DNA of 64,000 nucleotides, taken from NCBI RefSeq assembly GCF_014642675.1, contig NZ_BMIS01000002.1, forward strand, positions 1-64,000, in the 5' to 3' direction. The notes beneath the pieces were generated by a model. It had not been told where the DNA came from. It made no database searches and saw only the letters and a program-made list of their open reading frames with translations. The stretch's first letter is position 1. Every line of letters begins with the position of its first letter. Shown here piece after piece: positions 60,194 to 62,664 of the stretch. The stretch comes from Nesterenkonia cremea. GTDB taxonomy: Bacteria; Actinomycetota; Actinomycetes; Actinomycetales; Micrococcaceae. Both the position numbers and the translations under genes were made by a program.

Positions 60194-60823
60194 TCAGCCC
60201 AGACCAGCGCTGCGCCGGACTCTGAGCAGACGGAAACCCTTATCCGTCTCGGGACGGTCGGCGGAGAAGTCCTCGCCCACGGAGGCGAGCATGGAGCGGA
60301 TCCAGGTGAGCAGCGAGTCTGCCCCGAGGTTCTTCTGGACCACCATCCAGGCCTCGGTGTCCTCAGCCAGCCGCGGCAGCCACAGCTCCAGCAGCTCATG
60401 CAGAACCTTCTTGCCCACACGGATGGGCGGGTTGGACCAGATGGTGTCGAAGCGCACCGCCGAGGGGACCTCCTCAGGGGCCATGACCTGCACGTTCTCC
60501 AGGCCCAGTGCGGCGGCGTTCTCCGCGCAGAGCGTGCGGGAGCGCTCATTGACGTCCACCGCCCAGACCGTGGCCTTCGGGGACCGCATCGCCATGGTCA
60601 GGGCGATGGGACCCCAGCCGCAGCCGATGTCTAGCAGATGGCCCGTGGGCGCAGGGTCCGGCACATGCTTCAGGAGCACAGCGGTGCCCTTGTCCACCCC
60701 CTCGGGGGAGAAGATCCCACCGGCGGTGCTGACGGTCACCGGTCTGCCCTCGAGTTCGACCTGCAGGCGGCGGCGTTCGAAGGGACTGTCCGGAGAGACG
60801 GAGAAATAATGCGAGGAGCTCAC
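60194..60823 (-). CDS. Class I SAM-dependent methyltransferase, RsmC-like
   Basis: A 209-residue methyltransferase. The SAM site LLDIGCGWGPIAL is near 64-76, and SNPPIRVGK near 129-137 is the NPPY-type motif of base N-methylases. The closest type is the C-terminal half of RsmC, which methylates a guanine in 16S rRNA; as a single-domain version the exact target is uncertain. On the minus strand TACGAT (60835-60830) lies 6 nt before GTG 60823, so it is probably leaderless. Divergent from the hflX leader, with adjoining -10 boxes. Confidence 0.85.
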   Translation of the reverse strand: MSSSHYFSVSPDSPFERRRLQVELEGRPVTVSTAGGIFSPEGVDKGTAVLLKHVPDPAPTGHLLDIGCGWGPIALTMAMRSPKATVWAVDVNERSRTLCAENAAALGLENVQVMAPEEVPSAVRFDTIWSNPPIRVGKKVLHELLELWLPRLAEDTEAWMVVQKNLGADSLLTWIRSMLASVGEDFSADRPETDKGFRLLRVRRSAGLG

Positions 60824-60842
60824 CCGTTGATCGTAGTATGAT
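60804..60842 (+). promoter_or_regulatory. Promoter of the hflX leader transcript
   Basis: TATGAT (60837-60842) lies 7 nt before ATG 60850. The expected -35 position (about 60813-60819) reads GAGGAGC, not a consensus box, and is preceded by AAATAAT (60804-60810). An AT-rich patch just upstream of -35 is a known feature of WhiB7-dependent promoters, and hflX belongs to the WhiB7 regulon in mycobacteria. WhiB7 control here is inference. The -10 box adjoins that of the divergent methyltransferase gene (60830-60835). Confidence 0.5.
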
Positions 60843-60849
60843 TGACCCC

Positions 60850-60870
60850 ATGTGGATCTACTTCATCTGA
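60850..60870 (+). CDS. Six-residue leader peptide MWIYFI upstream of hflX
   Basis: ATG TGG ATC TAC TTC ATC TGA encodes M-W-I-Y-F-I. The ATG lies 7 nt after TATGAT, the same spacing as the apparently leaderless genes of this window, so translation would begin at the 5' end of the transcript. Composed of aromatic and branched residues, it could stall ribosomes when they are slowed by antibiotic or by low charged tRNA. The hflX start lies 220 nt downstream. There is no homology evidence available for a peptide this short. Confidence 0.55.
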   Translation: MWIYFI

Positions 60871-61089
60871 GTGCCCCGGTCTCGCTGAGACGCCTGTCTG
60901 GGCCACCCTGCTCCCGCCTGATGCGCGGTCGAGCCTGAACACCGTCCACATCTGAGCAATCCGCTCAGCGTATAAGCCCCGCTCATCCCCTCAAGAGCGC
61001 TCTGCCATAGGACGATGTCCCCGCCGAGCCGTAGGATGGGTGGACCACAGCGGGCAGGGCCGGGGGAAGCCTCGGTCCTTCAGGAGACT
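60850..61089 (+). promoter_or_regulatory. Structured 5' leader of hflX, candidate attenuator
   Basis: Segments that can pair in exclusive ways: ATGTGGA (60850-60856, the leader ORF start) with TCCACAT (60945-60951); CTGAGC (60952-60957) with GCTCAG (60963-60968); CTGAG at the leader stop (60867-60871) with CTCAG (60964-60968). CATCTGAG occurs at both 60865-60872 and 60949-60956. GTCTC/GAGAC (60879-60891) and the palindrome AGAGCGCTCT (60994-61003) add local hairpins. No T tract follows, so the outcome may be Rho-dependent or translational. Confidence 0.5.
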
Positions 61090-62664
61090 ATGACGAAGAA
61101 ACACGAGACCACACCCTCCGCCGACCAGGCGCAGCCGCAGCACGCCGAGCAGCAGGAGGAGACCAGCCAGTCCTCGATCGATGCGACCATCGAGCGCATC
61201 CTCGCGGCCGATGACACCAGCCGTCAGCGCGGCGTGTTGGATGAACGTGCCCGCGAGCTCTCCTCCGTGGAGGTGGAGCACGCAGACACCGACGGCGAGC
61301 AGTACGATCTCTTCGAACGTCGCTCGCTGCGCCGCGTGGAGGGACTCTCCACGGAGCTGGAGGACATCACCGAGGTCGAGTACCGCCAGCTGCGCCTGGA
61401 GCGTGTGGTGCTGGCCGGCATCTACGTGGGCGGACAGTCCGCTGAGGCTGAGCACTCGCTGCGTGAGCTCGCCGCTCTGGCCGAGACCGCTGGCTCCACT
61501 GTCCTGGACGGCTTCCTGCAGAAGAAGTCCACCCCGGATCCGGGCACCTTCTTCGGCTCCGGCAAGGCGGAGCAGATCCGCGAGGCCGTGGCCGAGGTCG
61601 GCGCAGACACGGTGATCGTCGATTCCGAGCTCGCCCCCTCCCAGCGCCGCGGTCTGGAGGACATCGTGAAGGTCAAGGTCATCGACCGCACAGGCCTGAT
61701 CCTGGACATCTTCGCCCAGCACGCCCAGTCCCGCGAGGGTAAGGCGCAGGTGGAGCTGGCCCAGCTGGAGTACCTGCTTCCGCGTCTGCGCGGCTGGGGC
61801 GACTCCATGTCCCGTCAGGCCGGTGGCCAGGTGGGCGGCGCCGGAGCCGGTATGGGCTCTCGCGGCCCCGGTGAGACCAAGATCGAGCTGGACCGTCGTC
61901 GCATCAACCAGCGGATGGCCAAGCTGCGCCGCGAGATCGCGAATATGAAGCCCGCCCGTGAGGCCAAGCGTGCCAACCGGCGTCGCAATGCAGTGCCCTC
62001 GGTGGCCATCGCCGGCTACACCAACGCCGGCAAGTCCTCGCTGCTGAACCGCCTCACCGACGCCGGTGTGCTGGTGGAGAACGCCCTGTTCGCCACGCTG
62101 GATCCCACGGTCCGCAAGGCCAGCACTCCGGACGGCATCGGCTATACACTCTCGGACACGGTCGGGTTCGTCCGTGCCCTGCCCACCCAGCTGGTGGAGG
62201 CCTTCCGCTCCACCTTGGAGGAGGTGGCCGACGCCGACCTCATCCTGCACGTGGTGGATGCCTCCCACCCGGAGCCGGAGGGGCAGATCGCCGCAGTGCG
62301 CCAGGTCCTCGCCGATGTCGAGGCCCATGAGGTGGACGAGATCATCGTCCTGAACAAGGCCGATGCCGCCGAATGGGACGTGGTGGAGCGCATCCGTCGC
62401 CGCGAGCCCCACACGGTGTTGGTCTCGGCCCGCACCGGCGAAGGCGTGGAGGAGCTCAAGGAGCTGATCAGCCAGTCCATCCCGCGGCCCAACGTGCCGC
62501 TGGAGCTGCTGGTGCCCTATGCCGACGGGGACATCGTCTCGCGTCTGCACGCCGAGGACGTGGAGATCCTCTCCACCACCTACACCGAGGAAGGCACACA
62601 GCTCAGCGTCCGGGTACGCCCGGAGATGACTGCTGACCTGGCGAAGTACCAGGTGACTGCGTGA
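61090..62664 (+). CDS. hflX: GTPase HflX
   Basis: A 524-residue HflX, a GTPase that binds the large ribosomal subunit and splits stalled ribosomes, contributing to macrolide-lincosamide tolerance in mycobacteria and Listeria. An N-terminal acidic extension of 70 residues precedes the HflX domain (RGPGETKIELDRRRIN near 259-274). GTPase motifs are GYTNAGKSS near 309, DTVGFVR near 356 and LNKAD near 422. AGGAG precedes ATG 61090; the frame is open upstream to 61015 without a better start. A 240-nt leader with a small ORF lies upstream. Confidence 0.95.
   Translation: MTKKHETTPSADQAQPQHAEQQEETSQSSIDATIERILAADDTSRQRGVLDERARELSSVEVEHADTDGEQYDLFERRSLRRVEGLSTELEDITEVEYRQLRLERVVLAGIYVGGQSAEAEHSLRELAALAETAGSTVLDGFLQKKSTPDPGTFFGSGKAEQIREAVAEVGADTVIVDSELAPSQRRGLEDIVKVKVIDRTGLILDIFAQHAQSREGKAQVELAQLEYLLPRLRGWGDSMSRQAGGQVGGAGAGMGSRGPGETKIELDRRRINQRMAKLRREIANMKPAREAKRANRRRNAVPSVAIAGYTNAGKSSLLNRLTDAGVLVENALFATLDPTVRKASTPDGIGYTLSDTVGFVRALPTQLVEAFRSTLEEVADADLILHVVDASHPEPEGQIAAVRQVLADVEAHEVDEIIVLNKADAAEWDVVERIRRREPHTVLVSARTGEGVEELKELISQSIPRPNVPLELLVPYADGDIVSRLHAEDVEILSTTYTEEGTQLSVRVRPEMTADLAKYQVTA

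Follow-up and report, generated by a model that had tools for sequence, protein, structure and literature searches.

The hflX gene in the window (the whole 64,000-nucleotide stretch of DNA analyzed here) is preceded by a six-codon mini-ORF of the leaderless type, encoding the peptide MWIYFI, which begins 7 nt after a -10-like hexamer and 240 nt before the hflX start codon. All 30 genomes of the genus encode hflX and have a mini-ORF at the matching place in front of it, and such leaders were also found in 13 of the 25 other genera sampled in the family. The encoded peptides are of two kinds, the beginning of the mini-ORF takes part in a pairing (P1) that covaries within the genus, and a second RNA element, the P2 hairpin, recurs there as well. 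Judging from these sequence comparisons, it is reasonably probable that the mini-ORF is a macrolide-type ribosome-sensing leader of hflX, with drug-induced arrest being part of the prediction. A ribosome-sensing attenuator was already suggested by the first-pass annotation. The mini-ORF and P1 proved to be kept over the genus, and the peptides of the relatives resemble macrolide-arrest peptides, whereas the conservation of the six codons and the competition at the stop region, both parts of the same suggestion, were not borne out beyond the closest relative.

The mini-ORF, its promoter, and its distribution

The product of the gene is recognized by the HflX family model TIGR03156 with a score of 442 bits (cut-off, 216.75) and contains the GTP-bdg_N, GTP-bdg_M, and MMR_HSR1 domains; it is the single HflX above the family cut-off in its own genome. 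The MWIYFI mini-ORF described in the first-pass annotation (codons ATG TGG ATC TAC TTC ATC TGA) was confirmed in the sequence. Its ATG is directly preceded by TCGTAGTATGATTGACCCC, and the combination TAnnnT-7nt-ATGTGG occurs once in the window, with 0.07 occurrences expected by chance. From the -10 spacing, the transcript is predicted to begin at the A of this ATG (position 60850). No sigma-70 promoter with both hexamers was matched between positions 60700 and 61100, and Rfam covariance models gave no matches either in the whole window at the gathering thresholds or in the 60800-61100 segment at E values up to 1. The features of the region are listed below.

Features of the hflX leader region in the window
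Feature	Positions	Strand	Remarks
-10-like TATGAT, distal (leader) promoter	60837..60842	+	TAnnnT 6-8 nt before ATG in 29/30 genus genomes
Leaderless-type mini-ORF MWIYFI, ATGTGGATCTACTTCATCTGA	60850..60870	+	Stop at 60868-60870; same position filled in 30/30 genus genomes
P1 5' arm AUGUGGAU (mini-ORF start)	60850..60857	+	Pairs with 60944-60951; both sides change in relatives
P2 5' arm GCUCCCGC	60910..60917	+	NCUC/GAGN hairpin with YY bulge
P2 3' arm GCGG-UC-GAGC	60925..60934	+	UC bulged
P1 3' arm GUCCACAU	60944..60951	+	Pairs with 60850-60857
Local hairpin CUGAGC/GCUCAG, competitor proposed in the first-pass annotation	60952..60968	+	Kept only in the nearest relative G002 (L089) among aligned loci
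Possible upstream in-frame hflX ATG	61015..61017	+	25 codons longer; AGGA 2 nt before, poor Shine-Dalgarno spacing
Candidate hflX-proximal promoter, -10-like TAGGAT	61032..61037	+	Predicted; L089 has TATCAT here
hflX Shine-Dalgarno AGGAG	61082..61086	+	Before ATG 61090
hflX, ribosome-splitting GTPase family, putatively regulated gene	61090..62664	+	TIGR03156, Pfam

The gene upstream of the leader encodes a small-domain methyltransferase and is transcribed divergently, with a GTG start at position 60823 on the minus strand. The hexamer TACGAT is located six nt upstream of this GTG (minus strand, 60823-60850), and this -10-like element overlaps the leader promoter; the methyltransferase gene looks leaderless, too. 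In many loci of the genus, the divergent-promoter region shares the sequence TCGTAGTA.

The literal hexapeptide pattern ATGTGGATHTAYTTYATHTRR was found in 2 of 58 genomes (the own genome and 57 others), namely, in the own genome and in its nearest relative, G002, each time before hflX. The first-pass annotation had tied its proposal in advance to the conservation of the six codons in close relatives, which was thus observed in the nearest relative alone. Taken by itself, the count of the exact peptide would come close to refuting that proposal, but the mini-ORF as such is present in every genome of the genus: what is kept genus-wide is a leaderless-type mini-ORF before hflX, albeit with other peptides.

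This arrangement was counted in a strict scan for TAnnnT, a gap of 6 to 8 nt, and an ATG-started frame of 3 to 16 codons within 520 nt before hflX. In the genus, 30 of 31 loci matched, corresponding to 29 of 30 genomes (one genome, G009, was counted at two loci); the locus that was missed, L107, has GATACT as its hexamer. The gap is exactly 7 nt in 26 of the 30 genomes and 6 to 8 nt in 29 of them. Matches were also seen in 22 of 58 loci from other genera of the family and in 4 of 80 named loci, which belong to the Micrococcaceae Garicola, Citricoccus, Sinomonas, and Glutamicibacter. Leaders were lacking at 76 named loci (79 scanned), among them other Micrococcaceae as well as other families of Micrococcales. 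Garicola koreensis actually falls within the genus, as locus L113 is contained whole in the named locus L008; its genus is presumably Nesterenkonia in GTDB.

Controls produced few matches. The reverse strand gave 0 of 31 genus, 2 of 58 family, and 1 of 80 named loci, and dinucleotide shuffles led to expectations of 0.15, 1.35, and 1.1 matches, respectively. The same scan inside hflX yielded 0 of 71, and a far window on the same strand (520 to 1,040 nt) gave 0 of 30 genus, 4 of 57 family, and 3 of 73 named loci. The four family matches in the far window are true leaders, located 720 to 896 nt upstream with an acetyltransferase ORF between the mini-ORF and hflX; without the true leaders, the far windows contain 3 matches in 160. 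With the far leaders included, the family total comes to 26 of 58 loci in 13 of 25 genera, and no leader was found in the examined loci of the remaining 12 sampled genera; these 58 loci were hand-picked (1 to 6 per genus, from ∼160 listed places) and do not represent a random sample. A class-wide spread was considered and rejected: among the best-scoring 28 of 88 genomes of the class sample, a single locus from another family matched, with the nonhydrophobic peptide MRVS.

The start codon and the early stop at a fixed distance recur even in genera whose DNA cannot be aligned in this region. This observation bears on the view that the mini-ORF is untranslated and that its letters are kept solely as a constraint of the promoter or the divergent gene. 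The methyltransferase start at 60823 and the overlap of the two -10-like elements are compatible with such a view, and constraint on the RNA from P1 and P2 would require no peptide. However, it is very unlikely, considering the recurrence in unalignable genera, the matches inside the gene (0 of 71) and in the far windows (3 of 160, true leaders excluded), and the constraint seen at the level of the peptides.

Leader peptides and RNA pairings

The peptides of the genus include MWIYFI (twice), MWIFFI, MWIIYL, MWIPHP, MWIVHT, MWIMHT, and MRLYRI, together with 22 long forms, such as MWIHLTYSRPRG and MWIRPLQYARPRHAA. Overall, the leader peptides fall into two kinds, mostly hydrophobic 4- to 7-mers and 12- to 15-mers. 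In 25 leader peptides from outside the genus, the fraction of FWYILVM residues after the first Met is 0.68, versus 0.22 in 157 control mini-ORFs from the same regions (P of 3e-11, an underestimate given that the sequences are related). Hexapeptides or nearly so make up 11 of 24 leader peptides outside the genus. Compared with MYLIFM, the streptococcal MsrDL peptide, 16 distinct hexapeptides have a mean BLOSUM62 score of 7.1 (10 for MWIYFI and 15 for MFLIFE) and 94 distinct control hexapeptides a mean of −5.8; among the best-scoring controls, MWIFLR, MFLLFA, and MFLLFV turned out to be leaders lying beyond the 520-nt limit. Some peptides are unlike MYLIFM (MTFLPA, −5; MWIPHP, −2; MRLYRI, −1), and MWIPHP, MWIVHT, MWIMHT, MRLYRI, MTFLPA, MKK, and MANK resemble neither known kind of arrest peptide.

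A general +X(+) rule is known for arrest motifs. The [RK]x[RK] pattern, of the same type as RLR in Listeria hflXr, is found in 21 of the 23 long forms (20 of 22 in the genus) versus 38 of 224 control mini-ORFs, the long forms without it being those of L090 and L110. The latter is the sole MWIR form without R-x-R (it reads APPSP), and the perfect P2 hairpin is also lost there. Within the nine MWIHLTYSRPRG forms, codons 4 to 12 vary only synonymously (pN of 0); for the nine 15-residue forms, the pN/pS ratio is 0.64, and over YARPR it is 0.50, indicative of moderate constraint.

Given that the MWI-type peptides are rich in Trp and aromatic codons, the leader might be thought to sense charged tRNA through its Trp, Tyr, Phe, or Ile codons rather than a drug. 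This kind of amino acid attenuation appears extremely unlikely and was rejected on account of the variety of the peptides: no single amino acid is shared over the family (compare MFLIFE, MTLIIL, MLIFL, and MRLFK), the long forms contain only one Trp, and hflX does not belong to a biosynthetic pathway.

The pairing of the mini-ORF start with 60945-60951, proposed in the first-pass annotation, is present in the window as P1, an 8-bp helix (60944-60951) that includes one G-U pair, and is kept and covaries in the genus. In general, P1 joins the first 8 to 12 nt of the mini-ORF to a segment 50 to 185 nt downstream. It comprises at least 7 bp in 28 of 31 MW-type leaders (27 from the genus and four from other genera) versus 35% of shuffles, and two-sided changes are seen at nt 9 (TA 10, CG 3), nt 10 (CG 10, AT 1), and nt 11 (GC 5, TA 3). 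In L115, P1 is formed by GGAUCAUG with CAUGAUCC; other versions are GGAUUCG with CGAAUCC in the clade-B leaders and CUGGGC with GCCCAG in the MKIW forms. When mini-ORFs were compared on the same downstream sequence, the own mini-ORF had a mean rank of 0.15 against foreign ones for 21 genus 5' ends; P1 is weak outside the genus (mean rank of 0.39 for 22 5' ends). The P1 of the window is by itself unexceptional, being equaled in 22 of 200 shuffles and by 38% of foreign mini-ORFs (rank of 0.38). The minimum-energy fold computed for the window leader does not contain it, and the stability of the whole leader is not unusual (z of −0.78).

These data can be set against another explanation, in which the mini-ORF is translated but senses no drug: a ribosome positioned at the 5' end would protect the messenger or supply ribosomes to hflX, and the peptide would drift. 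The peptide indeed varies between genera while the start position and shortness stay constant, and leaderless starts are described as common in actinobacteria (PMC4633059). Still, this explanation is rather unlikely, as it does not account for leader peptides that greatly exceed control mini-ORFs in hydrophobicity and resemble MsrDL, for the R/K-x-R/K motif of 21 of the 23 long forms, for the purely synonymous changes in the MWIHLTYSRPRG group, or for the covariation of P1.

The P2 hairpin, absent from the first-pass annotation, recurs in the genus: in 23 of 30 genus leaders, the top-scoring hairpin of this shape has the pattern [GA]CUCCCG...CGGUYGAG[CU]. Shuffles of single leaders match its score in 0 to 30% of cases. 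It also occurs as UCUC/GAGA in two Citricoccus-type leaders. The competition between the stop region and a local hairpin, also proposed earlier, fared less well. The letters are there (CTGAG at 60867-60871, CTGAGC at 60952-60957, and GCTCAG at 60963-60968), but among the aligned loci only the own genome and its sister G002 have them, and this competition is a mere candidate. No alternative partner or terminator for P1 switching was found in the window and no intrinsic terminator on the plus strand between 60700 and 61100; terminator-like sites were seen in 7 of 55 leaders, scattered over different places. The pairing comparisons relied on segment tests, as MAFFT and RNAalifold, applied clade by clade to entire leaders, misaligned those of variable length (e.g., L113).

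An ACAAGYCCCGC-like motif is located 3' of the P1 3' arm in most genus leaders, in differing reading frames; its version in the window is ATAAGCCCCGC (60973-60981). A second small ORF after P2 (TTG/ATG before GAATCC) was also considered and discarded, as its frame differs, by eye, between L091 and L097.

hflX start codons and the proposed mechanism

In the genus, the 3' arm of P1 is not the hflX ribosome-binding site (RBS) and lies ∼140 nt before the hflX start. In L117, from another genus, 12 nt of complementarity link the mini-ORF start AUGUGGAUCUUC with GAGGAUCCACAU, which comprises the Shine-Dalgarno sequence and the start codon of the next cistron. In L124 and L159, the mini-ORF pairing (9 and 8 nt, respectively) covers the Shine-Dalgarno sequence of an in-frame upstream hflX start, and in L139 and L141 it is located immediately beside the Shine-Dalgarno sequence. 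A general rule that the mini-ORF pairs with the next RBS was rejected: such pairing is clearly above shuffles in 5 of 16 loci and not in the other 11.

In-frame upstream hflX starts with a Shine-Dalgarno sequence are present in 11 of the 26 leader-bearing family loci versus 2 of the 32 loci without a leader (0.5 each in the out-of-frame control), and in 2 of 4 named loci with a leader versus 3 of 76 without; by the same rule, none was found in the 30 genus genomes. In several leader-bearing loci (e.g., L124, L133, L155, L165, and L177), hflX has two in-frame starts with a Shine-Dalgarno sequence, 21 to 36 codons apart, which would yield HflX proteins of two lengths. A GNAT acetyltransferase ORF is located between the mini-ORF and hflX in L117 (recognized by Pfam) and in L139, L141, and L174 (similar translation). 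Owing to these upstream starts and intervening ORFs, the distal transcript would, in several genera, first make a longer HflX or the acetyltransferase.

According to the proposed mechanism, ribosomes would start directly on the 5'-terminal AUG of the mini-ORF, and a macrolide-type drug in the exit tunnel would cause them to stall there, most likely around the stop codon, by analogy with MsrDL. The stalled ribosome would then block the pairing of the mini-ORF start with 60944-60951 and thereby switch hflX on, so that HflX, known for rescuing stalled ribosomes, would increase upon stalling; in the window's genus, the output could be either translation or transcription. In L117, L124, and L159, the start or body of the mini-ORF would pair with the next cistron at its Shine-Dalgarno sequence or start codon, and this arrangement could serve as the simplest kind of translational attenuator, consisting of two segments. 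A ribosome stalled at RPR in the 15-residue forms would leave nt 1 to 11 free, so masking of P1 by a stalled ribosome fits these forms poorly.

Leaderless mRNAs are loaded by 70S ribosomes. It can be imagined that sensing resides in the leaderless start: unsplittable 70S ribosomes, the substrate of HflX, would be loaded at the 5' AUG, with little role for the peptide. The spacing of the -10 hexamer and the ATG is better conserved than the peptide, and HflX is described as splitting vacant and stalled 70S ribosomes (PMC12493154). However, a leaderless start may be nothing special for leader ORFs of actinobacteria, and the likeness to arrest peptides would require a separate reason; a start-codon sensor of this kind seems quite improbable. 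A wider scheme, improbable as well, would have the 5'-terminal AUG loaded by unsplit 70S ribosomes as the HflX substrate, the MsrDL-like and R-x-R peptides serving as interchangeable modules, and the released RBS giving a longer HflX or the acetyltransferase. If that were true, the hflX messenger would read the ribosome pool itself, family-wide.

If, instead, the mini-ORFs are macrolide-type ribosome-sensing leaders, as favored here, they would provide a natural set of leaderless arrest peptides, with both kinds occurring at a single orthologous site, so that both known modes of macrolide arrest would be directly comparable at hflX leaders. They would also add a second phylum with leader-peptide control of hflX.

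Comparison with known leader-peptide systems

In the open-licence papers searched, neither MWIYFI nor any leader peptide of an actinobacterial hflX was found. The own genome encodes two WhiB proteins (L178 and L179), neither of which has an AT-hook-like tail; the AT-hook is the mark of WhiB7, which seems to be absent from this 98% complete assembly. In mycobacteria, whose hflX is likewise actinobacterial, the gene is described as being controlled, in contrast to a leader peptide, by the transcription factor WhiB7 and raised by macrolides and lincosamides (PMC12493154).

Leader ORFs upstream of hflX are known from Listeria and Bacillales. The Listeria monocytogenes gene hflXr (lmo0762), a second, resistance-type copy of hflX, is preceded by rli80, described as a transcription attenuator with a 14-residue RLR leader ORF and an intrinsic terminator, where a drug-stalled ribosome is presumed to open expression (PMC6310831). 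The common features are a short leader ORF before hflX and the R-L-R motif, corresponding to R-x-R in 20 of the 22 long forms of the genus; in contrast, the window has a leaderless start, a single hflX, no intrinsic terminator that could be found, and a peptide without Arg-Leu-Arg, with RLR or RPR occurring only in its relatives. The Bacillales element uORFC-6-1 similarly combines a uORF with Arg-Leu-Arg before hflX and an RNA structure with covariation (PMC8632094); as described there, the whole of that structure is downstream of the uORF start codon, which P1, by contrast, includes.

The closest counterpart of the short peptides is MsrDL (MYLIFM), the leader of the streptococcal ABC-F gene msrD, which is reported to arrest at its stop codon in the presence of erythromycin on streptococcal and E. 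coli ribosomes, with Leu3 and Ile4 being essential and a Rho-independent terminator at msrD (PMC10314930). Like MsrDL, MWIYFI consists of six hydrophobic residues followed by a stop, and MFLIFE, MFIILV, and MFLYFL are similar; unlike MsrDL, it has Ile3 and Tyr4, while Leu3-Ile4 is present in MFLIFE and MTLIIL of other genera. The feedback idea as such is already described for hflX of Listeria and Bacillales, and what is new here is the peptide and the leaderless architecture. In the best reading of these comparisons, the hflX leader would work like the hflXr and msrD attenuators and represent a separate, leaderless variant of them.
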